From Chitinophaga vietnamensis (GTDB lineage Bacteria; Bacteroidota; Bacteroidia; Chitinophagales; Chitinophagaceae), in assembly GCF_902167635.1 (NCBI RefSeq), contig NZ_CABHMS010000007.1, positions 62,001 to 126,000 of the forward strand: 64,000 nt of DNA. The letters are read 5' to 3'. Shown here piece after piece: positions 10,000-50,371 of this stretch (position 1 is the stretch's first letter; each line of letters begins with the position of its first letter). The translations under genes were made by a program, and so were the position numbers. Below the pieces are notes generated by a model. The model searched no databases, was not told the origin of the DNA, and saw only the letters and a program-made list of their open reading frames with translations.

Positions 10000-12444
10000 A
10001 TGCAAGTACTAAAATTCGGCGGCACCTCCGTCGGCAGCGCCAAAGCGATAGAACAAGTTTGCCTCATACTGAAAAAATATAAACCGGCAGGAAAATATGC
10101 CATCGTAGTATCCGCCATGGGCGGCATAACAGACAAGCTTATACGTTGCGGACAGCTCGCCGGAGAAGGCCAGGAACAATACAAGGCCGTACTACAGGAA
10201 ATAGAAGCCCGCCACCTCGACGCTATCCGCGAATTGTTCCCTATCACCATGCAGAGCGGCCTTATCAGCCAGCTCAAGAAAAAACTGAATGCCCTCGAAA
10301 ACCTTTGTGATGGCATCTTCCAGGTAGGTGAACTCAGTCCCCGCTCATTAGACAAGATCATGAGCTTCGGCGAACTCATCTCCTGCACCATCGTAGCAGA
10401 GAAATTAAAACAGCAAGGTCTCTCCGCCACCTGCAAAGACAGCCGCGAGCTGATCGTGACCGATAACAACTTCGGCCATGCCACCGTTAACTTCGTCGCC
10501 ACCAACCATCATATCAGTCAGTATTTTGCACAGCAAACGGCCGACTACATTGTATTCCCCGGCTTCGTGGCCGCTACGCCCGAAGGCGAAACCACCACGC
10601 TGGGCCGCGGCGGCTCCGACTACACCGCCGCCATCCTCGCCGCCGCCGTACATGCCAGCGTACTCGATATCTGGACAGATGTAAGCGGCATGATGACCGC
10701 CGATCCGCGCCTCGTATCGCAAGCCATCCCCATCGCGCACATCTCCTATGCCGAAGCGATGGAGCTGTCGCACTTCGGCGCCAAAGTGATCTATCCACCT
10801 ACCATCCAACCGGTGATGGACAAACGCATCCCCGTATGGATCAAAAATACTTTTGCCCCGGAAGACCACGGCACGCTGATACATGACGGCGCGGACCGCA
10901 GCTTCCCGGTAACCGGCATCTCCGGCATACAGCACATCGCGCTGCTCACCCTCGAAGGCAGCGGCATGGTGGGCATCCCCGGCTTCTCAAAAAGATTGTT
11001 CGAATCGCTCCTACGGGAACGCATCAACGTAATCCTCATCACCCAGAGCTCTTCCGAACACTCTATCACTGTCGGCATTCATGACACCGATATGCTCAAG
11101 GCCAAAACCGCTGTGGACAGCGAGTTTGCGCAAGAGATACAGGAGAAACGTATCGAACCTTTACTGGTAGAAAAAGATCTCTGCATTGTAGCCGTAGTGG
11201 GCGACAAAATGAAAAACCATCACGGCACCAGCGGCAAACTGTTCGGCACCCTCGGTCGTAACGGCGTAAACGTAAGGGCCATCGCACAGGGATCTACCGA
11301 AAAAAATATCTCCGCAGTGATCAACAAAGCGGATGTAAAAAAAGCGCTCAACCTCATCCACGAAGCGTTCTTCGAAGCACCACTCAAACAGGTCAACCTT
11401 TTCATAGCAGGTGTTGGTAACGTAGGCGGCAAACTGCTGGAACAGCTACAGCAACAGCAGGATTACCTGCAACAGGAACTGGGCCTCCAGATCAGGGTTG
11501 CCGGCCTCGCCAACAGCAAAAACATGCTGCTCAGCGAATATGGCATCGGGCTGCACGACTGGCGTAACGCGCTCCCACAGGGCGATCCCATGGATATGAA
11601 CGCATTGGTACAGCAGATCAAATCATTCAACCTGCGCAACAGCGTATTTGTAGACAATACCGCCAGCGCAGAAGTAGCAGCTACCTATCACGAGTTCCTG
11701 CAACACGGCATCTCGGTAGTTACCTGCAACAAAATTGCCTGCTCCTCCGACTATGAATATTATAAGAAGCTGAAAGACCTGGCGCGTAAATACAATGCCT
11801 CCTTCCTCTTCGAAACCAATGTGGGCGCAGGCTTGCCGGTGATCAACACCCTCAACGATCTCGTAAGGAGTGGCGACAAAGTGCATAGCATACAAGCAGT
11901 ATTATCCGGCAGTCTCAATTTCGTATTCAATCATTTCGTAAATGGCGCCAGTTTCCGCGAAGTGGTGAAAGCCGCGCAGGACGAGGGTTACACCGAACCG
12001 GATCCGCGCATAGACCTCAGCGGGAAAGATGTGATGCGCAAGATACTCATCCTTGCCAGGGAGAGCGGCGCGGCGATAGAGATGGAAGATATCACCAATC
12101 ACTCCTTCCTGCCGGCAGCCTGCCTGGATGCGCCGTCTGTCGCCGGTTTCTACGAGGAACTGGACACCCATGCCGCCCATTTCCAACGGCTGCGCGAAGA
12201 AGCAGAATCCGCAGGGAAACGCCTCAAGTTCGTGGCCAGCTATGTGGATGGCCAGGCATCGGTAGGCCTGCAATGTGTATCGCCCGATCATCCTTTTTAC
12301 CAGCTGGAAGGAAAAGATAATATCGTGCTGTATACCACCAGCCGCTACAAAGAGCAGCCGCTGATCGTGAAGGGCGCCGGCGCCGGCGCGGACGTAACCG
12401 CCTCCGGCATCTTTGCCGACATCATCCGCAGTGCACGTTTATAA
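10000..12444 (+). CDS. thrA: Bifunctional aspartate kinase/homoserine dehydrogenase
   Basis: An 814-residue fusion that catalyses the first and third steps from aspartate to threonine, methionine and lysine precursors. The kinase domain starts with VLKFGGTSVGS (residues 3-13) and is followed by a regulatory ACT region at about 310-460. The homoserine dehydrogenase half opens with the NAD(P) motif GVGNVGG at residues 471-477 and carries FVDNTASAE and VVTCNK. The length is typical of the fused enzyme. It is the first gene of thrA-thrB-thrC and is preceded by the Thr/Ile leader, so both transcription attenuation and ACT-based feedback control are likely. Confidence 0.97.
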   Translation: MQVLKFGGTSVGSAKAIEQVCLILKKYKPAGKYAIVVSAMGGITDKLIRCGQLAGEGQEQYKAVLQEIEARHLDAIRELFPITMQSGLISQLKKKLNALENLCDGIFQVGELSPRSLDKIMSFGELISCTIVAEKLKQQGLSATCKDSRELIVTDNNFGHATVNFVATNHHISQYFAQQTADYIVFPGFVAATPEGETTTLGRGGSDYTAAILAAAVHASVLDIWTDVSGMMTADPRLVSQAIPIAHISYAEAMELSHFGAKVIYPPTIQPVMDKRIPVWIKNTFAPEDHGTLIHDGADRSFPVTGISGIQHIALLTLEGSGMVGIPGFSKRLFESLLRERINVILITQSSSEHSITVGIHDTDMLKAKTAVDSEFAQEIQEKRIEPLLVEKDLCIVAVVGDKMKNHHGTSGKLFGTLGRNGVNVRAIAQGSTEKNISAVINKADVKKALNLIHEAFFEAPLKQVNLFIAGVGNVGGKLLEQLQQQQDYLQQELGLQIRVAGLANSKNMLLSEYGIGLHDWRNALPQGDPMDMNALVQQIKSFNLRNSVFVDNTASAEVAATYHEFLQHGISVVTCNKIACSSDYEYYKKLKDLARKYNASFLFETNVGAGLPVINTLNDLVRSGDKVHSIQAVLSGSLNFVFNHFVNGASFREVVKAAQDEGYTEPDPRIDLSGKDVMRKILILARESGAAIEMEDITNHSFLPAACLDAPSVAGFYEELDTHAAHFQRLREEAESAGKRLKFVASYVDGQASVGLQCVSPDHPFYQLEGKDNIVLYTTSRYKEQPLIVKGAGAGADVTASGIFADIIRSARL

Positions 12445-21212: not shown

Positions 21213-21232
21213 AATATTGTGGAATTTCTTGA

Positions 21233-21317
21233 TGTAAGAATTTGAGAATTTGAGAATTTGAGGATTTTGCCGGGATCATCTTCCCCCGATAAATCCTCAA
21301 ATTCCAAAATTCTTACA
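21233..21317. repeat. Periodic inverted repeat after phoH-like gene
   Basis: Arms at 21233-21267 and 21291-21317 are built from an 8-bp unit (AATTTGAG). The left arm has one more unit than the right, so the pairing leaves a bulge of one repeat. It lies between two genes on the same strand. Confidence 0.75.
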
Positions 21318-21396
21318 TTTAAAAATATTTATGACTTTGCAGATTTGAATGTTTACCCCTATTTTTGTTCGTGATATATAATAATTTATCGACCGC

Positions 21397-22628: not shown

Positions 22629-22677
22629 ATCATTTAGGAATTTATTGATTTACAGATTTACGGATTTTCTGATTTAT

Positions 22678-22732
22678 GGATTTATAAATTTAAATGGCGC
22701 CTGTTGCAGGCGCCATTTAAATTTATAAATCC
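22678..22732. terminator. Bidirectional hairpin between ppa and NlpC/P60 gene
   Basis: A perfect 26-bp stem (22678-22703 with 22707-22732) and a 3-nt loop TTG, with GGCGCC near the tip. It sits between convergent genes. The flanks add 8-bp periodic units such as GATTTACG on one side and their complements on the other, so the paired region may extend further with mismatches. Confidence 0.88.
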
Positions 22733-22745
22733 TCACATCCTTAAA

Positions 22746-23504
22746 TCAAAAAATCCTTTTAATGATGCGTAGTTTGTGAGAACGTATGCCGGTATCGGCG
22801 TTAGTGATGCCCTGGTTATCGATCGGGTCTACCCGTACTTTACCGGATGAATGTATGATCTCGTGATCGTTGAGCAGGATACCTACGTGCGTGATGCGTC
22901 CTTCCTCATTGTCGAAAAAAGCGAGATCACCAGGCTGCGCTTCCTGCAGGAAATCAACCACATGCCCCTGCGTGGCCTGCTGGTAGGCATCGCGCAGCAG
23001 GCGCAGGCCTGCCGTCTTGAAAACCCCTTGTGTGAAACCGGAGCAGTCGATCCCAAACACGCTGCGTCCGCCCCACAGGTAGGCAGTATTTAGATGCGTG
23101 AAAGCATTATCTTTGATAACGGAAGCCAGACGCGCAGACGTCAGTTCAGTGGGCACCGGTTGTGGTGTGACAACAGTGATGCTCCCCCATTGCAGGTTAC
23201 TTTTGACCAGGCAGCCGAAAGGCACTATCATCGGCTGGCCGTTCATTGTTACCTCGTTAATCCATGATGGCAGGTACCCGGATACCGGAGCCTGATATAG
23301 CGCTGAGTCTATCGTTTCGAGGTGCGAGGCTGTAGCCCAACCGATATAATCATCATATTGGTTTTTGATTTGCACCCAAGCACCGGGAGCGGTGTTGATG
23401 ATCTCCACACATTCACCCCATAACAGTTGCGAGATCATTTCACTTCTGTGTGCCGCCTCTGCTCGCAAAGGCGCAACTGGCACAATAACAATGGCATATG
23501 GCAT
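22746..23504 (-). CDS. NlpC/P60 peptidase with SH3-like domain
   Basis: A 252-residue cell-wall peptidase. A bacterial SH3-like region (about residues 1-65) and a linker precede the NlpC/P60 domain. The catalytic triad is visible as C154 (GIDCSGF), H206 (RITHVGI) and H218 (EIIHSS). The arrangement resembles YkfC-type endopeptidases that cut gamma-D-Glu-diamino acid bonds in peptidoglycan fragments. No signal peptide is obvious, which favours cytoplasmic muropeptide recycling, but export cannot be excluded. Confidence 0.9.
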   Translation of the reverse strand: MPYAIVIVPVAPLRAEAAHRSEMISQLLWGECVEIINTAPGAWVQIKNQYDDYIGWATASHLETIDSALYQAPVSGYLPSWINEVTMNGQPMIVPFGCLVKSNLQWGSITVVTPQPVPTELTSARLASVIKDNAFTHLNTAYLWGGRSVFGIDCSGFTQGVFKTAGLRLLRDAYQQATQGHVVDFLQEAQPGDLAFFDNEEGRITHVGILLNDHEIIHSSGKVRVDPIDNQGITNADTGIRSHKLRIIKRIF

Positions 23505-25948: not shown

Positions 25949-26305
25949 ATGAACGAGCATTTCAACGATATATTCATCACTACGGGCTGTCCTTCGCAAC
26001 AGCAGCTGCTGGACTATGTGCAGGGCAGGCTGTCGCCGGAAGAACAACACGAGGTGGAAATGCACCTGGCCGACTGTGATCTTTGCAGCGAAGCATTAGA
26101 GGGATTGGCCGCTATTAAAGACAAGGAAAAGATACCAGGATGGCTCCGCGAGATGAAATGGAGCTTGCTGAAGAAGCTGCGCTCACGCTACCGCCAGCGC
26201 AGGAAATCAGAAAATCATATATACCTTACCGTTATTATCCTGGCAATCCTCTTCCTGTTACTGGCTTTGTTCTGGGGTTTTCATTTTGCGACACACCATA
26301 AATGA
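25949..26305 (+). CDS. Minimal zf-HC2 membrane anti-sigma-like protein
   Basis: A 118-residue protein with the zinc motif HEVEMHLADCDLC (H-x3-C-x2-C). A basic helix (LLKKLRSRYRQRRKSE) and one membrane segment near the C terminus (IYLTVIILAILFLLLALFWGF) follow. ATG at 25949 is preferred to a TTG 15 bp upstream. Position and domain make it the likely regulator of the sigma factor at 25350. Only a few residues would project into the periplasm, so sensing must involve another protein. Confidence 0.82.
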   Translation: MNEHFNDIFITTGCPSQQQLLDYVQGRLSPEEQHEVEMHLADCDLCSEALEGLAAIKDKEKIPGWLREMKWSLLKKLRSRYRQRRKSENHIYLTVIILAILFLLLALFWGFHFATHHK

Positions 26306-26311
26306 TTTAGT

Positions 26312-26369
26312 GATTTTTTGATTGACGGATTTTTTGATTTAAATCAAGAAATCCGTCAATCAAAAAATC
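26312..26369. terminator. Loop-free palindrome between anti-sigma gene and guaD
   Basis: Two 29-bp arms (26312-26340 and 26341-26369) meet without a spacer and have one mismatch. The right arm ends at the base before the guaD stop codon. The units are GATTTTTTGATTGACGG-like and AT-rich. It lies between convergent genes and could end both transcripts. Confidence 0.85.
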
Positions 26370-26849
26370 TCAATATAATTTCTTGTCTCCTTTCTTCTCC
26401 CATTGCTTAAACACATGTAATGCTTCTTCACCGGGCAGGTGGATCAGCGGGATTTTCTTTTCATCATTGGGCACATCTATTTCGCGGTAGATAAATGAAT
26501 CATCGAAAGCGATGGCGGCCGCATCTTCTCTGGTATTGGCGTAATATACGCGCTGCGGCCTGGCCCAGTAGATAGCGCCCAGGCACATGGGGCAAGGCTC
26601 GCAGGAGGTAAATATTTCGCAATCGTGCAGCTGGAAAGTGCCTAGTTTCTGACAGGCATCGCGGATAGCTACTACCTCTGCGTGCGCGGTAGGATCATTA
26701 TGGCAGAGCACCTGGTTCCATCCCTCTCCCACTATCTCGTCTCCACGCACTACAACGGAACCAAAGGGGCCGCCATCGCCGGTTTCCATTCCTTTGCGCG
26801 ACAGTTCCACAGCGTATTGCATAAATTTCTTTTCTCTTTCTCCAATCAT
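26370..26849 (-). CDS. guaD: Guanine deaminase (cytidine deaminase-like fold)
   Basis: A 159-residue zinc deaminase. The zinc site is H56-A-E58 and C86-P-M-C89 (SCEPCPMCLGAIYWA). The C-terminal AFDDSFIYREI matches the small Bacillus-type guanine deaminase, which converts guanine to xanthine, better than tRNA adenosine deaminase. It is separated from clpB by a strong terminator. Other nucleoside deaminases of this fold remain possible. Confidence 0.85.
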   Translation of the reverse strand: MIGEREKKFMQYAVELSRKGMETGDGGPFGSVVVRGDEIVGEGWNQVLCHNDPTAHAEVVAIRDACQKLGTFQLHDCEIFTSCEPCPMCLGAIYWARPQRVYYANTREDAAAIAFDDSFIYREIDVPNDEKKIPLIHLPGEEALHVFKQWEKKGDKKLY

Positions 26850-29756: not shown

Positions 29757-32081
29757 ATGAAAAGACTGCTATCTATTCTCGTATATGCGACCACGTTAGT
29801 AACGGTAACGCCTGTACTCTATGCACAACAACATTACGATATAAAGGTAAGCACCGGCAACCGGGGCATAACCGCCAGTCGCCTGAAAGGCGAACTGGAA
29901 CGCCTGCACCAACAGCAACCCGATAAAGACATCCGCGTATTTTTTGAGCCAGGCACACATTACCTGGAAACGCCGCTGGAGATCAGCAGTACGCTTACTA
30001 ACGGTAAAGGACATATTATTTTCTACGGCGATGGCAAAGCTACGCTGAGTGGCGGACTGCCAGTAAAAGTGCAATGGGAACCGTGGAAGAACGGCATCTA
30101 TAAAGCAGCCCTGGACCTGCCTTTCCAGTTTGATCAGTTATATATCAATGACCGGCAGCAGGTACGCGCCCGTTATCCTAATTACGACAGTAGCGCACAG
30201 CATTATAATGGCACTGCTGCCGATGCCATCAGCCCGGCGCGTGTAAAAACATGGCAACACCCCGAGGGCGGCTACGTACATGCCTTGCATGCCGCTGAAT
30301 GGGGCGGTTATCATTACCGTATCACCGGGGTAAATGCTGATGGCGCCTTACAGCTCGAAGGCGGCTATCAGAATAACCGCCAGATGGGGATGCACCACCA
30401 ATACCGCTTTGTAGAGAATATATTTGAAGAACTAGATGCGCCTCATGAATGGTATTATGATGCCGCTCATAAAATACTTTACTACAAGCCTGCAGCTGGC
30501 CTTGACCTGAAAAAGGCCACTGTTACGGTTTCCAGGCACAAGGAGGTGATCGTACTTAAAGGCAGTGCAGCGGCGCCCGTAAAAAATGTAAGCATCGAAG
30601 GGCTTCGCTTTGCGCACACTGCACCAACGTTCATGGATACACGAGAACCTCTGTTGCGCAGCGACTGGGCCATCTACCGTGGCGGCGCTATACTGCTGGA
30701 TGGCGCGGCCTATTGCACCATCCATGATTGCGAATTTGATCACAACGGCGGCAATGCCATCTTCCTCAGTAATTATAACCGTCATCATCTTATCTCCGGC
30801 AATCATATTCATGATGCAGGCGCCAGCGGCATCTGCTTTGTCGGTAATCCTGACGCGGTGCGCTCTCCTTTGTTTGAATACAATCAATCGAGAAAATTTG
30901 AGGAGACAGATACCCTTGCCGGCCCTAAAACCAGCCACTATCCTGATTCCTGCACCGCTGTCGATAACCTCATCTATCGTACCGGGCGCATAGAAAAACA
31001 AAGTGCGGGCATCCAGATATCGATGTCGATGCGCCTGGTCATTTCCCATAATACCATTTATGATGTTCCGCGTGCAGGCATCAACGTTAGTGAAGGCACC
31101 TGGGGCGGGCACCTGATCGAATATAACGACGTATTCAACACGGTGTTGGAAACCGGCGACCATGGCGCTTTCAACTCCTGGGGCCGCGACCGCTGGTGGT
31201 ATCCCGACCGGAAAGAGATGGATAGTCTTGCCGCAATACATCCCTGGATGGTAAAGCAGGATGCCATGTACACCAATGTGCTTTATCACAATCGTTTCCG
31301 CTGCGATCATGGCTGGGATATAGACCTGGACGATGGTTCCTCCAACTACCATATCTATGAAAACGTTTGCCTGAACGGCGGCCTCAAACTGCGCGAAGGA
31401 TTTTACCGTACCGTAGAAAACAACATTATGCTTAACAACTCTTTTCATCCGCATGTGTGGTTTCAGGATAGCCACGATAACTTCCGGCATAATATTGTTA
31501 CCAGCGATTATAAGCCCATTGGCATCCGTTATTGGGGCGACGAGATCGATTATAACCTCTTCCCCGACAGTCGCGCTTTAGCAGCAGCGCAGTCCAGCGG
31601 CACCGATGCACATTCACATGCCGGCGATCCGCAGTTCGTGCAGCCTGCCACCGGCGACTACCGCGTGAGCCGCACCTCTCCTGCATTAGCCATTGGATTC
31701 AAAAATTTTTCCACCACTGATTTCGGCGTTACCTCTCCTGCCCTGAAAGCGATTGCCCAGCGCCCGCCCCTCCCCGTATTACGCCACAGCAGCGAAGCAC
31801 AAGGCAAGATCATCAACTGGAAAGGCGGCAAGATCAAGAACATAGAAACACTCGGCGAACGTTCCGCCACCGGCCTTCCTGACAATAACGGCGTATATAT
31901 TGTGGAAACGCCCAAGGCCTTCAATGCCAGACTGCAAGCCGGCGATGTAATCCTGAAAGTAGGCAATACGCCAGTGAACAACATCAAAGACCTGCTGCGC
32001 GCAGCGGAGAAGCATAGCGGGGAGAAAGTGGAAATATTTAGAAACCAGCGAAGGCTGTCTTTCTCAGGATTGAATGATTAG
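29757..32081 (+). CDS. Secreted right-handed beta-helix protein with PDZ domain
   Basis: A 774-residue exported protein with signal peptide ending VLYAQQ. The bulk is a right-handed parallel beta-helix (for example AAYCTIHDCEFDHNGGNAIF and GIQISMSMRLVISHNTIYD), the fold of pectate lyases and of some glycoside hydrolases. The N-terminal FFEPGTHYLETPLEI and the FDQLYINDRQQVRARYPNYD region recall GH141-type enzymes. Residues about 700-770 form a PDZ domain (LQAGDVILKVGNTPVNNIKDL). It likely acts on a polysaccharide; the substrate is unknown. Its last codons form part of the palindrome at 32063-32245. Confidence 0.82.
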   Translation: MKRLLSILVYATTLVTVTPVLYAQQHYDIKVSTGNRGITASRLKGELERLHQQQPDKDIRVFFEPGTHYLETPLEISSTLTNGKGHIIFYGDGKATLSGGLPVKVQWEPWKNGIYKAALDLPFQFDQLYINDRQQVRARYPNYDSSAQHYNGTAADAISPARVKTWQHPEGGYVHALHAAEWGGYHYRITGVNADGALQLEGGYQNNRQMGMHHQYRFVENIFEELDAPHEWYYDAAHKILYYKPAAGLDLKKATVTVSRHKEVIVLKGSAAAPVKNVSIEGLRFAHTAPTFMDTREPLLRSDWAIYRGGAILLDGAAYCTIHDCEFDHNGGNAIFLSNYNRHHLISGNHIHDAGASGICFVGNPDAVRSPLFEYNQSRKFEETDTLAGPKTSHYPDSCTAVDNLIYRTGRIEKQSAGIQISMSMRLVISHNTIYDVPRAGINVSEGTWGGHLIEYNDVFNTVLETGDHGAFNSWGRDRWWYPDRKEMDSLAAIHPWMVKQDAMYTNVLYHNRFRCDHGWDIDLDDGSSNYHIYENVCLNGGLKLREGFYRTVENNIMLNNSFHPHVWFQDSHDNFRHNIVTSDYKPIGIRYWGDEIDYNLFPDSRALAAAQSSGTDAHSHAGDPQFVQPATGDYRVSRTSPALAIGFKNFSTTDFGVTSPALKAIAQRPPLPVLRHSSEAQGKIINWKGGKIKNIETLGERSATGLPDNNGVYIVETPKAFNARLQAGDVILKVGNTPVNNIKDLLRAAEKHSGEKVEIFRNQRRLSFSGLND

Positions 32082-32245
32082 AAGGATTAGCAGGATTTTT
32101 TTACAGGATTAATAAAGATTTAAGGAGATTGATGAGAAGATTAACGAGGGGCTATCGTCGCGAAGATCTTCGAAATAATCTTCGTGAATCCTTTGTTAAT
32201 CCTGTAAAAAAATCCTGCTAATCCTTCTAATCATTTAATCCTGAG
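32063..32245. repeat. 50-bp-arm palindrome overlapping two convergent gene ends
   Basis: Arms 32063-32112 and 32196-32245 are complementary with one mismatch (G for A). The left arm includes the last 19 bp of the beta-helix gene, the right arm the last 11 bp of the betaine-binding protein gene. The sequence resembles the element at 34654-34857: both contain CAGGATTTTTTT, then CAGGATTAATAAAGATT. Confidence 0.9.
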
Positions 32246-33083
32246 CCATATTTTTTATCCATTCGGCGTTCTCCCAGGTCCATCTTTCGATGACGGCGTC
32301 TTCTTTGCCATCGGCATCGGCGAGGGAGCCCATGAGGGAGCCGAGTTGCTGGCTGTTGAGTTGGAATTTGCGGAAGAAGTTGACGGCGACGGTATCGCGT
32401 ACACTGAATTCGTTGTTGGCGATGGTGAGTATTTTTTCTTCGCTGCCGAAGGTGTTCAGAGGGTCCTCGAGGAAATGAAGTTTATAGCGTGCGAACATCC
32501 AGTGTGGCGCCCATCCGGTGATGACGATGGGTTGCATTTCGTCGATGCACTTTTTGAGAGTGGCCATCATGGCTGCTTCGCTGGAAGATTGCAGTTGGAG
32601 ATCGAGGTGGTATGTTTTGATAGCATCTTGTGTTTTGCTCATGATGCCAGCGCCGGCATCTATGCCGATTATTTTACCACCGAAGTGTTTTTTGGCAGCG
32701 TTGAGTTCTTCGATGCTGTTGATGTTGACATAGTCCGGTACTACGAGACCTGTTTTAGCGCCGTCGAAGTTGGTGTTGAGGATGGTGACCTTGCTGCCGA
32801 AATTGTCCATGTAATCTTTGTGGGTGGCGGGCATCCAGGTGTCCATAAAAACGTCGGCGTCGCCACCGGCTACCGCGGCGAATACCGGGGCTACGTCTGC
32901 ATTTTTAAGGGTCACGGTATAACCCTTTTTCTCCAGCAGGTTTTTGGCAAGTTGTGTCAAGGCTATGCCTTCGGCCCAGTTTACATAGGCAATAGTAATC
33001 TTCCTGTCGTTGCCGCCGCCGTGTTTACAGGCTGTGAAACCTGCTACCACAAAGGCGAGTGCGATGAGTAGTCCATTTCTCAT
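32235..33083 (-). CDS. Glycine betaine-type ABC transporter binding lipoprotein
   Basis: A 282-residue periplasmic binding lipoprotein (signal peptide ending FTAC, Cys19) of the OpuAC/ProX family. Diagnostic segments include KITIAYVNWAEGIALTQL, GGDADVFMDTWMPATHKDY and ITGWAPHWMFARYKLHFLEDP, whose Trp and Tyr residues form the aromatic box that binds quaternary amines. No ATPase or permease gene lies nearby, so it must dock to a transporter encoded elsewhere or work as an orphan. It is convergent with the beta-helix gene. Confidence 0.9.
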   Translation of the reverse strand: MRNGLLIALAFVVAGFTACKHGGGNDRKITIAYVNWAEGIALTQLAKNLLEKKGYTVTLKNADVAPVFAAVAGGDADVFMDTWMPATHKDYMDNFGSKVTILNTNFDGAKTGLVVPDYVNINSIEELNAAKKHFGGKIIGIDAGAGIMSKTQDAIKTYHLDLQLQSSSEAAMMATLKKCIDEMQPIVITGWAPHWMFARYKLHFLEDPLNTFGSEEKILTIANNEFSVRDTVAVNFFRKFQLNSQQLGSLMGSLADADGKEDAVIERWTWENAEWIKNMAQD

Positions 33084-33366
33084 GATCCGTCTTTCTTTAA
33101 AGTTATGCTTTAATCTTTTTGTTTTGGCCGTAACATCGTTGTGATTTTTATAATATGTTAGTTTGCTCTAAATCAAAAAACTTCTTCTTCAAAATTGATT
33201 ATCAAACAGATATCTCTGTAAACCAGTCATAGACCAATAATTGTAGCGATATTTCAAACAAGACGGGATGCTTTATTGTTATAGAAATCCGAAGCGATCG
33301 TCTGTGAATTTCGACCAGCGGCAAAGCCGTTCCCGATATTTTTCTTCATCATTAAACCCTACAATT

Positions 33367-34653
33367 ATGTCTTTTGACTTATTAGAAAGTGCAAAAAATC
33401 TTTTTAACAGTAATGTAATCAGTCAGGCATCCTCACAATTAGGAGAGAGTGAAGGGGGAATACAGAAGGCGTTGACAGGCGTAGTGCCTGTTGTATTATC
33501 AGGATTGTTCCATAAGGCCGATTCCACGGGAGATGCTGGCGGATTACTGAACCTCGTGAAGGGAGCGGCCGGCGACGCCAATCCTAACAGCGTTACCAGC
33601 GCCTTACAGGGAGGCGCCGGGGGCATACTCAGCAAGGGCGCCGATATGCTGAGAAATTTATTTGGCGACAAGGTAAGCTCTATCACCAGTATGCTGGCCA
33701 ACTATGCAGGCATTAAAGAATCATCGGCCAGCACCCTGCTGCAATCCGCTGCACCGGCCACTTTGGGCACAGTAGGCCAATATGCCGCACAGAACAACCT
33801 GAATGCCGGCGGCCTGATGTCGTTCCTCAATTCGCAGAAAGACAAGATACTGGGCGCGCTTCCCGGTGGCCTGAACCTCGCGGGCATATTAGGACTGGCC
33901 AGCTTGGGCGATCTTGGCAAAAAAGTAGGCAACCTTGCATCCAGCTTCGGTGCGGGCGCCAGCAATGCTGCCAATGCCACCATTAACACCGTTAAACAAG
34001 GTAGCAGCAATCGTTGGATATGGTCTTTATTACTCATACTGGTAGCCATCATCCTGTTATGGTACCTGATGCGCGGCTGTGGCGGCGGTCATAATACCGG
34101 CAGCGGCACCAGCGACAGTGTTACCACCGGCCAGCTCACCGACTCCACCGCCAGTTCACAGGTAGCTACACCCACTACCACCGAGACACGCGAAAGCATC
34201 AAAGTGACACTGCCCGACGGCACCACACTCGATGCTTATAAAGGCGGTATCGAAGACCAGCTGGTGACCTTCCTCAAAGATGATTCACGCAAACCAGGCA
34301 AAGATGTATGGTTTGATTTCGATAACCTCAACTTCAAAACCGGCAGCGCCGAACTGACCGAGGAAAGCATGAAACAGGTAGGCAACATCGCCGCCATCCT
34401 CAAGGCCTTCCCTAAAACAAAGATCAAGATCGGCGGCTACACCGATCGCACCGGCGATAGCACCATCAACCTCAAACTCTCCGGACAACGTGCCGAAGCC
34501 GTAGAGTCCTCACTGAAAAAACTCAACGCCGACGCCGCACAACTGCTGGGCGCCCAAGGCTATGGCTCACAATTCGCCAAAGCCGCAGCCACCGCACCAG
34601 ACGAAGAAAGGAAGAAAGACAGACATATTTCTATCAGCGTAAGAGAAAAATAA
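33367..34653 (+). CDS. DUF937-OmpA fusion protein
   Basis: A 428-residue protein. The start is set at ATG 33367, since upstream in-frame sequence has no family match. Residues 1-200 form a DUF937 (YidB-like) helical, Gly/Ala/Ser-rich domain. A membrane helix follows (WIWSLLLILVAIILLWYLM, about residues 219-237), then a Thr/Ser linker and a C-terminal OmpA domain (VWFDFDNLNFKTGSAELTEES, GGYTDRTGD, LSGQRAEAVESSL) that binds peptidoglycan. It likely links the inner membrane to the cell wall. No classical signal peptide is present. Confidence 0.88.
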   Translation: MSFDLLESAKNLFNSNVISQASSQLGESEGGIQKALTGVVPVVLSGLFHKADSTGDAGGLLNLVKGAAGDANPNSVTSALQGGAGGILSKGADMLRNLFGDKVSSITSMLANYAGIKESSASTLLQSAAPATLGTVGQYAAQNNLNAGGLMSFLNSQKDKILGALPGGLNLAGILGLASLGDLGKKVGNLASSFGAGASNAANATINTVKQGSSNRWIWSLLLILVAIILLWYLMRGCGGGHNTGSGTSDSVTTGQLTDSTASSQVATPTTTETRESIKVTLPDGTTLDAYKGGIEDQLVTFLKDDSRKPGKDVWFDFDNLNFKTGSAELTEESMKQVGNIAAILKAFPKTKIKIGGYTDRTGDSTINLKLSGQRAEAVESSLKKLNADAAQLLGAQGYGSQFAKAAATAPDEERKKDRHISISVREK

Positions 34654-34857
34654 GCGAAGGTTGTCTGGCTCAGGATTATACTGATTGAAAGGATTACCAG
34701 GATTTTTTTTATCAGGATTAATAAAGATTAAAAAAGGATTTGTGAAGATCATTTCAATTTGATCTTCGCGAATCCTTTTTTAATCTTTATTAATCCTGAT
34801 AAAAAAAATCCTGGTAATCCTTTCAATCAGTATAATCCTGAGCCAGACAACCTTCGC
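34654..34857. repeat. 204-bp palindrome filling a convergent gap
   Basis: Arms 34654-34751 and 34760-34857 are 98 bp each around an 8-nt loop. Only two positions differ, and both would be G-U pairs in RNA, so the transcript could form an unbroken 98-bp duplex. It starts on the base after the DUF937-OmpA stop codon and ends one base before the stop triplet of the DUF3857 gene on the other strand. The units are of the type AGGATTA and CAGGATTTTTTT. Confidence 0.95.
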
Positions 34858-34858
34858 G

Positions 34859-36769
34859 TTACTCCTCCTTTACCAGCACTACCCTGCTCCGGTCGGCTTT
34901 GTAGATGGTGTTGCGGAATTTGAGCAGTTCAGGGTAATCGGAGGGCGGGAAGGAGCCTGCGTAGTGTTCCAGTTTTCGTATATACGTGATCGTGTTATCT
35001 TTTACGGAGAGCATGGAGGTGTAGGCGCCGAATTTGTTCTTCATCATGACAGGCGCGGGAAGTGTTTCCAGCTTGTAGCCTTCCGGTATTTTGATCACGA
35101 CAGTATCGACGATGCGGGTGGAGGTGATGAAACGGATGGGCGATTGTCGCGCAGTATCTTTGTCGAGTTTGATGGAGGTGCGGCTCAGGATATCAGGCAC
35201 GAGGAACATTCGTTTACCCGTTACCGTAGCGTAGCTGTGACCGGCTATCTTCAGTTGCTCTTCGATGGAGGGCAGCGCTGTTTCCAGTTCCTTGCAATTA
35301 TAATCTACAATATCGTAGCTGGAAAGATCGAGGGAGCTTTTGAGCCGCTCCAGGCGCTTTTCGCGGCTGAGGTAATGTAACTCTGCACGCTGATCATCCT
35401 GTAACTCGCCGGTACGCAGCGTGACAGCCGTAATGTCGATATCGCCGGATGCCGCTACCACGGCATCGATACGGCGCAACTGCTGGTTTTGTTCGATGCC
35501 GTAAGCCGGCGTATGTACCAGCTGGCTGCTTTGCGCATCGAGGAGCAAGGCCGGCCTGTTGGCCGTAAAGGAACCCAGGTATCCCGGCTGCAGGATACCG
35601 CTGGTGCATTCCAGCCAGGTAGTATCTTTACCAGGTACACAAAGGATCACGTGGTTGAACCAGTCGAGCGGGAAATCTTCCGGGAAGGAACGTTCCGTTT
35701 CTCCCGCCCTTATCCATACGCAGTTAGAACGGATGCCCGCTTCCTTGAGCATGGCCATCATATAGTTGGAGAGCGCCTTACAATCGCCATATCCCGTTTT
35801 GTTGACAGTAACAGCGTCGAAGGTTTGCAAGCCGCCGATGCCGAGCTGTATGCTGATGTAACGGTAGTTCTGCTGAAGATATTTATACAGTACGCTGATC
35901 TTTTCTTTTTCTGTAGAGAGGCCATCGGTAAGTTGATGCACTTTCTGTTTCATGTTATCGGGCAGCACATCGCGGCCTTCGTTGAGTTGGTAACCGAAAG
36001 CGCCGAAGTCTTTCCAGGAGTTGAGGCTGCCCTGGTAGCGATCCATCTGGAACTGGCCGGCGGCCAACAATACACAGGTGGTACGTTTGTAAATCTCTGC
36101 GGCATAGTTCTCCTCTTTCAGCGCCGGTACTTGTTTTACGGTCCACTTGTAGGTTTTGAGGTCCTTATCTGTCGCAGTTTCCGGCTGACCGTTATACAGG
36201 TAGTTACGGTACATCAGTTTGAAATCCGCCGGGGTGGTTATTGTCAGCTGCGCCTGTTCAATGGTCCAGTCGTCGTGCACCTGTGGTATCCAGCGTTGCA
36301 TGTAGAACGCAGATTTCACTTTCATCTCCACTTCGTATTCTACCGTATACGGATATACGTTGTAATTGAACTCGTGTACCTTGTAGCGGGTGTCGGTCAT
36401 CAGACTGGCTTCGCCGGGCGAGCCGAAATCCTTGATATCACTCTGTTTCAGGCGTTTCACCAGTTTGCCTTCTGCATCATAAAGCGCGCCACTGATAGAG
36501 CGGATATCGAAATTCTTGCTATAGTCTTCACTGAATTTTACATCATCCGCACCGCCTTCATCGAGCACGGTGAGCACATAGTGATGTGTGTACCGCATGT
36601 TGCCGGGATCGCTGATCTCGTAGGCTGTTTCATCTGTGCGCACCACTACATGCGCGTCTTTCTTCAGGGCGGCTGGGATGGCGCTGGCGGGGTATAGGGG
36701 CTCACCGGCAAATGCGCTGCCAGCGAGCATTGTCAACAAACAGATGATGGATATGCAATGTTTCGGCAT
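34859..36769 (-). CDS. DUF3857/transglutaminase-like protein, intact triad
   Basis: A 636-residue exported protein (signal peptide ending AGSAFAG). An N-terminal DUF3857 beta domain (about residues 50-240) is followed by a transglutaminase-like core. The nucleophile is C330 in GYGDCKALSNYM, with the partner histidine in WFNHVILCV. A C-terminal beta-rich domain follows. Such proteins are common in Bacteroidota and their substrates are unknown. It lies 3 bp after the paralog at 36773-38794, so the two are cotranscribed. Confidence 0.87.
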   Translation of the reverse strand: MPKHCISIICLLTMLAGSAFAGEPLYPASAIPAALKKDAHVVVRTDETAYEISDPGNMRYTHHYVLTVLDEGGADDVKFSEDYSKNFDIRSISGALYDAEGKLVKRLKQSDIKDFGSPGEASLMTDTRYKVHEFNYNVYPYTVEYEVEMKVKSAFYMQRWIPQVHDDWTIEQAQLTITTPADFKLMYRNYLYNGQPETATDKDLKTYKWTVKQVPALKEENYAAEIYKRTTCVLLAAGQFQMDRYQGSLNSWKDFGAFGYQLNEGRDVLPDNMKQKVHQLTDGLSTEKEKISVLYKYLQQNYRYISIQLGIGGLQTFDAVTVNKTGYGDCKALSNYMMAMLKEAGIRSNCVWIRAGETERSFPEDFPLDWFNHVILCVPGKDTTWLECTSGILQPGYLGSFTANRPALLLDAQSSQLVHTPAYGIEQNQQLRRIDAVVAASGDIDITAVTLRTGELQDDQRAELHYLSREKRLERLKSSLDLSSYDIVDYNCKELETALPSIEEQLKIAGHSYATVTGKRMFLVPDILSRTSIKLDKDTARQSPIRFITSTRIVDTVVIKIPEGYKLETLPAPVMMKNKFGAYTSMLSVKDNTITYIRKLEHYAGSFPPSDYPELLKFRNTIYKADRSRVVLVKEE

Positions 36770-38843: not shown

Positions 38844-38914
38844 AATTACGAATTACGAATTAAGAATTACGACCCGTAGCGTGGTCCGTAATTCTTAATT
38901 CGTAATTCGTAATT
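38844..38914. repeat. Inverted repeat in the divergent queG promoter region
   Basis: Perfect 28-bp arms (38844-38871 and 38887-38914) of 7-bp units GAATTAC lie around a 15-nt loop. Unlike its relatives it lies between divergent starts, and its right arm ends 7 bp before the queG start codon, so it would be in the queG leader RNA. Confidence 0.85.
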
Positions 38915-48313: not shown

Positions 48314-48324
48314 AAAATATGTGA

Positions 48325-48407
48325 GAATTTTCGGATTTTCGGATTTTGGGATTTTATTTTACTGTATCTCAGATCAGGAAATCCGAAAATTCGAAAATCC
48401 GAAAATC
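48325..48407. repeat. Periodic inverted repeat before the phosphatase fusion gene
   Basis: Arms of 8-bp units (ATTTTCGG) at about 48325-48354 and 48379-48407 pair with one indel and two mismatches. It separates susD from the downstream phosphatase gene on the same strand. Confidence 0.75.
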
Positions 48408-48415
48408 TACAAATT

Positions 48416-50260
48416 TTGAAAAAGCTGTTTCTTCTCCCGGCGCTGATACTCGCTATTAACGTGCACGCACAAACGAAAACATACAGTATCGCGCAGGCCC
48501 ACTCCCACAATGATTATGAGCGGAGTACTCCCTTCTACGAGGCCGCTTCTCTCCGCTTCGGTTCTATTGAAGCTGATATACATTTGAAAGATGGTGTGCT
48601 GTATGTAGCACATGACCATAAAGATATCCAGGCCTTCCGCACTTTCAAGGAAATGTACCTGCTGCCTGTAGTGCGTCAGTTTGCCGTTAATAACGGTAAA
48701 GCCTACCCGGATGGCAGCCCGATGCAATTGCTGGTAGATATAAAAACTGAAGGCCGCTCTACGCTCAAAGCCCTGCAGGAGCTGCTAATACCGTACCGCC
48801 AGTACTTCGACCGTAGCGTAAACCCGGAAGCAGTGAAGATCGTGCTCTCCGGTAATGTGCCACCGGCTGCTGAATGGAACCAGTACGATCCACTCTTTTT
48901 CTTTGATGGACGGCCAGACAGCACCTACCCTGCCAGCCTGAAACCCCGCATCGCTATGGTCAGTGTGAGTTTCACCAATTACTCAAAATGGAACGGCAAA
49001 GGCACCCTTACCCCCGCCGATCTCGAAAAAGTAAAACAGGTGATCGACAAAGCGCATGCACAAGGCTATCCTTTCCGCTTCTGGGGCGCCCCTTCTTCCA
49101 AAAGCTGCTACTATAAATTAATGGACCTCGGTGTAGACATCATCGGCACCGATAAGCCCACAGAACTCTACGACGTGATCAGCAATACCGCCAAAACCAC
49201 TGTGGCCGGGCTTCCTGTACACGAAATATATACGCCTACCTACGCCTCCGATGCTACACAGGTACGTTCCAAAAACGTGATCCTGATGATCGGCGATGGT
49301 ACTGGCCTTGCGCAGATGTTTGCCGGTTACACGGCCAACAAAGGCGCCCTCAGCCTCTTTAAAATGAAGCAGCTGGGGCTTTCCAAAACACAATCCATAG
49401 ACAACTACCACACCGATTCCGCCGCCGGCGGCTCCGCCATGGGCACCGGCGTCAAAACCAATAACCGCGAGATCGGTATGGACAAAACATACGTATCTAT
49501 CCCTGTGCTCTCTGAAACCCTTGCGCCGAAAGGCATCCAGAGCGGCGTGGTAGTGACCGAAGAAATCACCGGGGCTACACCGGCGTCTTTCTACGGTCAT
49601 ACCACCGACCGCGACAGCACCCGTCTCCTGGCGCAGGCGCTCACCACCAGCCCGCTCCAACTCGCGGTAGGTGGCGGCAAGGAAGATTTTGACCAGGACC
49701 TCGGCCCGCAATGGCAGCAACAGCTCGCCGCCAAAGGCGTTTATGTAGTGGATAACCTGGATAACTGGAACGCACAAACGAAAAACAGGACCCTGGTGAT
49801 CCTCAGCAATAAAGCGGTAGGCTCCATGCAACAAGGGCGCGGCGACTACCTCAAACGCGCTGTGAAAAAGGCTTTGCAGCAACTGAACGCCTCCGGCAAA
49901 GGTTTCTTCCTGATGGTGGAAGGCTCCCGCATCGATCATGGCGGCCACTTCAACGACCTGGACTACCTCGTACGTGAAATGCTCGACTTCGACGAAGCCA
50001 TCGGAGAAGCGCTGCGCTTTGCCGACCAGGATAAACAAACCACGGTGATCGTAACAGCAGACCATGAAACCAGCGGCCTTGCCCTCATGGATGGCGATAT
50101 CGCTACCGGCCAGCTGCGCGGGCACTTCGCCACCAACGACCATACCGGTATCCCCGTGATGGTATTTGCCTACGGTCCTAACTCCCAACTGTTCAGAGGC
50201 GTATACGAAAACAATGAGATCTATGCCAAGATGCTCCAGTGCTTTGGCATCCGGAAATAG
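48416..50260 (+). CDS. Phosphodiesterase-alkaline phosphatase fusion
   Basis: A 614-residue exported fusion. Residues about 20-265 form a PI-PLC/GDPD-like phosphodiesterase domain (AQAHSHNDYERSTPFYEAAS, FGSIEADIHLKDGVLYVAHD). Residues about 285-614 form an alkaline phosphatase with metal site MIGDGTG, serine nucleophile region DSAAGGSAMGTG, and TADHETSG. One chain could thus cut a phosphodiester and then remove the phosphate. The start is TTG at 48416. As the gene after susCD it suggests a locus for organic phosphate use. Confidence 0.9.
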   Translation: MKKLFLLPALILAINVHAQTKTYSIAQAHSHNDYERSTPFYEAASLRFGSIEADIHLKDGVLYVAHDHKDIQAFRTFKEMYLLPVVRQFAVNNGKAYPDGSPMQLLVDIKTEGRSTLKALQELLIPYRQYFDRSVNPEAVKIVLSGNVPPAAEWNQYDPLFFFDGRPDSTYPASLKPRIAMVSVSFTNYSKWNGKGTLTPADLEKVKQVIDKAHAQGYPFRFWGAPSSKSCYYKLMDLGVDIIGTDKPTELYDVISNTAKTTVAGLPVHEIYTPTYASDATQVRSKNVILMIGDGTGLAQMFAGYTANKGALSLFKMKQLGLSKTQSIDNYHTDSAAGGSAMGTGVKTNNREIGMDKTYVSIPVLSETLAPKGIQSGVVVTEEITGATPASFYGHTTDRDSTRLLAQALTTSPLQLAVGGGKEDFDQDLGPQWQQQLAAKGVYVVDNLDNWNAQTKNRTLVILSNKAVGSMQQGRGDYLKRAVKKALQQLNASGKGFFLMVEGSRIDHGGHFNDLDYLVREMLDFDEAIGEALRFADQDKQTTVIVTADHETSGLALMDGDIATGQLRGHFATNDHTGIPVMVFAYGPNSQLFRGVYENNEIYAKMLQCFGIRK

Positions 50261-50285
50261 AATTTTTGAATTTATGGATTTACGG

Positions 50286-50352
50286 ATTTATGGATTTAAT
50301 TGGAGCGGAGATGACTACATTGTTCATCTCCGCTCCAATTAAATCCATAAAT
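50286..50352. terminator. Hairpin between phosphatase and HAD genes
   Basis: A perfect 29-bp stem (50286-50314 with 50324-50352) and a 9-nt loop, flanked by further partly paired GGATTTAC-type units. It fills most of the gap between two convergent stop codons. Confidence 0.88.
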
Positions 50353-50371
50353 TCCAAAATCCCAAAATCCC

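Follow-up and report, generated by a model that had tools for sequence, protein, structure and literature searches.

The question raised by this locus is what a very long hairpin is doing in the gap between two convergent genes of Chitinophaga vietnamensis, and where it came from. It lies in a stretch of 64,000 nt of contig C7 (hereafter the window, in whose numbering positions are given unless a contig or locus is named). As the initial annotation described, the hairpin fills the space between two stop codons: the TAA of the plus-strand gene occupies 34651-34653 and that of the minus-strand gene reads TTA at 34859-34861, leaving 0 and 1 nt, respectively, to the hairpin (Table 1). The 98-nt arms, differing at two positions (98% complementary) and enclosing an 8-nt loop, were likewise confirmed. 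Both differences are T.G on the plus strand and A.C mismatches on the minus strand (apex, -29.7 vs. -21.9 kcal/mol), so their reported wobble compatibility is true of the plus-strand transcript only. RNA folding of the whole element gave -170.2 kcal/mol; shuffled sequences averaged -42.7 (sd 4.3), and none of 200 shuffles was as good. Scanning for a stem-loop followed by a T-tract, the signature used for intrinsic terminators, returned one site, on the plus strand only, with 0.3 expected in shuffles.

Table 1. Features at and around the hairpin, with the RAYT-like locus of the same genome (window positions unless a locus is named).
Feature	Position	Strand	Basis or remark
DUF937 + OmpA domain protein gene	33268..34653	+	ends at the left edge of the hairpin
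Left arm, F1 hairpin	34654..34751	+	homologous to at least 39 genome copies
Outer F1 motif TTGTCTNNCYCAGGATTA, left copy	34661..34678	+	motif type seen at the ends of GxxExxY flanks
Apical terminator-like stem-loop, then T-rich tail	34732..34779	+	terminator scan, reported on the + strand only
Loop, 8 nt	34752..34759	.	arm alignment and RNA fold
Right arm, F1 hairpin	34760..34857	-	
Outer F1 motif TTGTCTNNCYCAGGATTA, right copy	34833..34850	-	motif type seen at the ends of GxxExxY flanks
DUF3857/transglutaminase-like protein gene	34859..36769	-	ends at the right edge of the hairpin
Second, diverged F1 hairpin	32047..32248	.	convergent gap; stop codons of both genes inside the arms
Y1_Tnp gene locus	L165 around 10212-10556 (C4:222211-222555)		

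An Rfam search with the hairpin gave nothing above gathering scores; the best matches, all below them, were plant and animal microRNA-precursor models, the top ones alike on both strands, and this identity was rejected as generic matching of long hairpins. The plasmid and phage collections searched with the hairpin yielded no match.

Within its own genome (G000) the hairpin belongs to a dispersed repeat family, here called F1 (F1 to F6 are families named by eye from their repeat units). A similarity search found at least 39 similar copies: its 80 rows fell at 40 distinct places, of which one is inside an assembly fold-back; 39 is a lower bound, scoring having covered 40 of the 145 first-look candidates. 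The elements listed number 40 with the diverged copy in the window, and 51 when diverged copies from contigs C1 and C2 are added. From its outer GCGAAGGTTGTCT..CTCAGGATTA, the F1 consensus extends to GGATTCGCGAAGATC at the apex and is mirrored in the other arm, with TTTTTT following the closing AATCC; AATCYTTTTT, a strict form of the apex motif, occurs on the plus strand in 26 of the 51 copies, on the minus strand in 25, on both in 21 and on at least one in 30. As the hairpin is a copy of a dispersed family, the recent formation first proposed for it is not supported as stated.

Two observations concern the assembly. In contig C7, the initial 62,408 bases and the 62,408 that follow them are perfect reverse complements of each other (window 1-62816; G000:C7:1-124816), in a fold-back that is centred on window 408/409 at a GC-rich hairpin, ends at the contig start and doubles one F1 copy; it is almost surely an assembly artefact, and the copy at C7:27947, which belongs to it, was discarded. 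Contig C13 stops within an F1 hairpin (G000:C13:24919-25113), so such hairpins probably break assemblies.

The exceptional length originally claimed for the hairpin did not hold within its genome: approximately 1.22 Mb (C1, the window and 60 kb of C2) contain 98 hairpins with arms of at least 25 nt, several of them longer-armed, against none in 400 kb of block-shuffled C1. By unit, they were grouped by eye into F1, F2 (ATTTACGG-like), F3 (AATTACG), F4 (TTATTTGG), F5 (CGCAAAG) and F6 (CCCCTACGGGGC). With a simple in-house gene caller, 97 of the 98 could be placed, 41 in convergent, 51 in tandem and five in divergent gaps, the available gaps of at least 30 nt numbering 101, 449 and 145, respectively. 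Both edges lay within 20 nt of stop codons in 27 of the 41 convergent cases, and tandem hairpins lay within 20 nt of the upstream stop in 44 of 51 cases and of the downstream start in eight. The window holds further short-unit hairpins of F2, F3, F4 or similar type (2160-2257, 21224-21326, 22655-22756, 26300-26381, 38844-38914, 48314-48417 and 50270-50368), that at 38844-38914 being the only one of the window in a divergent gap.

A candidate partner gene for F1 lies outside the window. The sole GxxExxY gene of the genome (PF13366; C8:160830-161171) stands between inverted F1 arms; agreement with the F1 consensus is 61 of 65 positions for the arm at L166:9739-9808 and 63 of 71 for that at 10287-10359. 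The encoded protein scores 131 bits against TIGR04256 (cut-off 35) and 128.3 bits against PF13366 (PDDEXK_3; cut-off 22). D69, E79 and K81 are invariant in the 12 aligned proteins, with D, E-x-K and Q present in 12/12; we take D ... E-x-K to be the active site of a PD-(D/E)XK nuclease. The eponymous G-x-x-E-x-x-Y is incomplete in this protein, which keeps E and Y and has S for the first G. A structure predicted from a two-sequence alignment reached a mean pLDDT of 38.8, and the PDB searched with the GxxExxY profile gave no sequence match at E 10. In the portions of the open-licence literature searched, neither a repeat partner of GxxExxY proteins nor the F1 family was found described. The CBM9-like neighbour protein (L166:8705-9814) takes its hydrophobic N-terminus, signal-peptide-like by eye, from the F1 arm next to GxxExxY.

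The association recurs in the genus. Of the 59 genomes searched, 30 contain PF13366. Among the 36 that belong to this genus there are 13, each having one main match; G011 additionally carries a broken gene fragment, and G022 a second, weak match. With 300-nt flanks, an inverted-repeat score of at least 24 was reached at 8 of 12 genus GxxExxY loci vs. 3 of 827 genes of C1 (p = 1e-14). The own locus (L063) scored 60 with both 700-nt and 400-nt flanks; it had no frame in the 300-nt test because its motif has S for G. The top flank score among C1 genes was 80, at a gene between two F3 hairpins (1095099-1095506); by eye, this gene was taken for an ordinary one.

The genus proteins form clade A (G000, G002, G042, G049, G045 and the divergent G001) and clade B (G011, G016, G017, G018, G022, G023 and G044), which are 25-30% identical across the border, as measured for the first aligned sequence. 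Clade A flanks are of F1 type, as a variant in G042 and G045 and ambiguously in G001, and clade B flanks are of F5 type, in four of seven by score and in the other three by eye. The family of dispersed repeats largely follows the nuclease clade. The F5 pattern occurs in 7/7 clade B genomes (6-56 matches each) vs. 2 of 29 other genus genomes (p = 4e-6), namely G042 with two matches and G000 with 14, yet G000 has no clade B gene. Matches to the F1 pattern numbered 81 in G000 (the artefact copy counted), 117 in G002, 76 in G042, 131 in G049, 50 in G004, one in G041 and none in the other genomes of the genus, the reversed pattern giving none; at least two matches were found in four of six clade A genomes vs. 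1 of 30 others (p = 0.001). For G045, where the arms of the GxxExxY gene carry CTGACCAGGATTA, dispersed copies of this sequence were expected beforehand in G045 only, and the search of 59 genomes found 16 there (two beside the gene) and at most one in each of the other 58.

Both clades occupy fixed loci. The clade A gene lies between M13-peptidase and CBM9-like genes in G000, G042, G049 and G002 (4/6) and beside the M13 gene in G045, G001 being different; the clade B gene lies beside one and the same gene in 7/7, presumably nuoG. Given these fixed loci, similar flanks within a clade may go back to a single event. In a 20-genome tree, clade B and F5 were concordant in 2.8, on average, of the three independent pairs differing in clade B, and clade A and F1 in one of two, numbers of contrasts that put significance out of reach. 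Among sisters, G018 (gene, nine F5 matches) and G019 (no gene, none) agree with the association; for G002 (gene, 117 F1 matches) and G004 (no PF13366 match, 50) it would require loss of the gene with remnants of the repeat. At the level of arm sequence, the results tell against a simple pairing: the GxxExxY arms of G000 score approximately 40 against its own F1 copies and 28 against other sets; those of G049 and G002 average higher against the F1 copies of G042 than against their own (the G002 set coming from four loci), and those of G042 match no F1 set well. We consider it likely that GxxExxY genes and F1 or F5 repeats are cognate pairs.

Beyond the genus, the own protein was matched in 161 of 395 sampled genomes of the phylum at E 1e-15 or better. 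Thirty phylum loci (L277-L306) were taken, the own locus and four cut ones being left out of the motif test (25 loci), whereas flank scoring used 26. Flank scores of at least 24 were obtained at 15 of the 26 uncut loci (own included), some of them near shuffled controls. An inward TGTCTGAAC- or F1-type motif stood on both flanks at eight of the 25 loci, on one at five and on none at 12, across 12 family codes; the C1 genes had it on both flanks in 0/827 and on one in 23 (p = 2e-13 for both flanks), and on the wrong strand the phylum loci had it on both flanks at none and on one at two. TTGTCTGAACYNNGATT was found in 43 of the 395 genomes, 22 of the 68 with a protein match at E 1e-30 or better vs. 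21 of the 327 others (p = 4e-8); with 14/21 of genus code g81 and some matches beside the gene itself, this association is supportive, not independent. One of two GxxExxY genes from a viral collection (L342; 40% identity) is bracketed by AAATGAAACG-type repeats, around 1955-2000 and 2380-2420, possibly another cognate repeat.

Turning to the function of the element at its present site, the same gap was compared in relatives. Fifty-four orthologue loci were named and 22 kept, 32 being excluded (no convergent neighbour, gap outside 20-250 nt, or cut). Of these 22 relatives with the convergent DUF937/OmpA and DUF3857 pair, 16 have a short hairpin of terminator type in the gap (classed by eye and fold) and six a long hairpin. 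A half-palindrome of 53-89 nt lies in the gap at five loci (L172, L173, L181, L184 and L185); the sixth, L186, has an imperfect long hairpin (fold -76 kcal/mol), to which the strict half-palindrome criterion gave 9. By eye, the six are F4-like, F3-like, GCAGAAAG-type (two), F1-like and GTCCATAG-type. As relatives hold short terminators or long hairpins of differing families, the slot is kept and its occupant changes: what persists across the pair is a terminator-type slot, filled mostly by a short hairpin or by another family. In our reading, the window hairpin is a terminator for both directions that took the place of an earlier one. Termination of both genes, which the initial annotation suggested, is fairly probable; it agrees with the terminator-type hairpins of the relatives and with the terminator-like apex, though the scan reported the latter on the plus strand only.

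Turnover was also seen from the opposite side, at six F1 sites of G042 or G049 with orthologous sites in the part of the own genome that was compared. One has F1 in both species, with species-specific sequence (L239/L055); the own genome has F3 at another (L243), short terminator-type palindromes at two (L104 and L232, that of L232 running stop to stop) and almost no gap at two (L240 and L241). No target-site duplication was seen at these six sites, the relatives being diverged.

The account that we lean towards, if only slightly as a whole, is that the window hairpin represents a non-autonomous member of F1, whose long palindromes form a dispersed family, and that F1 and the GxxExxY nuclease gene, at a fixed locus with F1 arms on both flanks, would be a cognate pair similar to REP/REPIN and RAYT. 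GxxExxY, or an ancestral GxxExxY element, may have copied the hairpins or may maintain them by cutting hairpin or cruciform DNA; that it is the enzyme doing either is somewhat easier for us to believe than to doubt. Copying from arm to arm would keep the arms matched. The apical stem and T-tract would end transcription from both sides, and copies would persist at gene 3' ends for this reason.

The most serious competitor, which we nevertheless think rather unlikely, is that the terminators grew in place, the short-unit repeats spread by recombination and slippage, and GxxExxY merely neighbours common intergenic repeats. It would fit the L232 site of the own genome, where the terminator is already a perfect palindrome across the gap, as well as the presence at 3' ends of several long-hairpin families, most without a known gene partner, and the independent contrasts are few. 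It does not sit well with the rarity of comparable inverted flanks among C1 genes (3/827, and the motif on both flanks in 0/827), with a repeat family that follows the nuclease clade, or with the G045 expectation that was borne out.

Ordinary MITEs of an insertion sequence, with GxxExxY as a passenger captured between two arms, would produce the same layout, a gene between inverted arms being what composite or autonomous elements have. One locus resembles such a case: on a viral-collection contig (L341), a GxxExxY gene of 61% identity, flanked on either side by TGTC(T)TGAAC arms (flank score 23), lies between genes for HsdM-type and specificity-subunit (hsdS-type) proteins, and the unit looks like an insertion. 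We judge this origin improbable, however, given that arms flank GxxExxY in several families across the phylum and, in the genus, at two distinct fixed loci, and that no target-site duplication was seen at the six sites compared between diverged relatives. F1 is indeed similar to MITEs in being short, non-coding and inverted-repeat, with a gene-bearing relative (the GxxExxY unit) sharing its ends; MITEs differ in having two short ends, whereas F1 is a near-complete palindrome with no target-site duplication seen and no classical transposase identified.

Arm matching was assessed in an alignment of 33 of the 40 listed F1 elements (A1), in cells that tally copies, not events. Two-sided changes affected 35 of 98 pairs (shuffled mean 14.1) and 136 cells (shuffled mean 37.2). 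One-sided changes gave a standard pair in 31 cells and an unpaired position in 93 of 2865, and are thus not rare but of comparable number; they were mostly mismatches, seldom G.U. Mean arm identity was 93% within an element and 83% between elements, the element's own other arm being the closest of all in 18 of 33. The active gene conversion initially suggested is compatible with these identities and with the many changes matched in both arms. Selection on RNA, sought as an excess of G.U over A.C in the sense RNA, appeared weak in tandem gaps (74 to 51, p = 0.049) and absent in convergent ones (44 to 42), and was set aside; we infer that the arms are matched by DNA-level copying from arm to arm with, at most, weak RNA selection. 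Retention of the hairpin chiefly for its RNA structure, as an RNase III target or mRNA stabiliser, is very improbable. The very stable fold and slight tandem-gap excess speak for it; the lack of excess in convergent gaps speaks against it, as does the predominance of matched two-sided cells over one-sided standard pairs, though 93 more are unpaired.

Returning to F1 and GxxExxY as a cognate pair, the closest known parallel is that of REP/REPIN repeats and RAYTs, which also comprise dispersed palindromes mostly downstream of genes and an associated nuclease-type gene. RAYT is described as a single-copy, vertically inherited nuclease-type gene (PMC8049555), RAYT enzymes and cognate repeats as co-evolving groups (PMC8266576), and REPs as preferring convergent and unidirectional gaps and carrying a GTAG or CGTC tag at the palindrome foot (PMC3733652). 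F1 has the same organisation: the dispersed repeat flanks one nuclease-type gene, which keeps a fixed locus. The differences are of size (20-40 bp for REP/REPIN vs. approximately 200 nt, with 98-nt arms, for F1), of the tag, which is absent from F1, where the consensus outer end is GCGAAGGTTGTCT, and of the enzyme, RAYT being an HuH enzyme and the F1 partner a PD-(D/E)XK-superfamily protein. The one Y1_Tnp gene of the own genome is flanked by F6, not by F1. Intrinsic bidirectional terminators occupy the same convergent-gene slot as the window hairpin and share its hairpin apex followed by a T-tract, but their arms are several times shorter than those of F1, which belong to a repeat family.

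To our knowledge, the HuH-type RAYTs are the one enzyme class by which REP-like repeats have been explained to date. The comparison raises the prospect of a second, RAYT-independent REP-like system across Bacteroidota, made up of GxxExxY nucleases and long hairpin repeats of short units, in which hairpins would be copied or maintained by a domesticated PD-(D/E)XK nuclease, each nuclease acting on its own repeat family, and hosts would reuse them as bidirectional terminators, families being swapped over time; for this generalisation we hold belief and doubt in equal measure. If true, the existence of another, unrelated nuclease with repeats of its own would make the combination of domesticated nuclease and palindromic repeat a recurrent one, give GxxExxY proteins a first role, account for the long, species-specific hairpins at Chitinophaga gene 3' ends, and render the upkeep of palindrome arm matching and the turnover of terminators testable.

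Two minor observations concern neighbouring repeats. The sole Y1_Tnp (RAYT-like) gene of the own genome has F6 arrays on both sides, with CGCCCC..GGGGCG cores, in the manner of a REP/RAYT pair. In the central part of L240 (G049), an F1 hairpin is symmetrically nested in the arms of another repeat, built of AGCTTTTAGC units.
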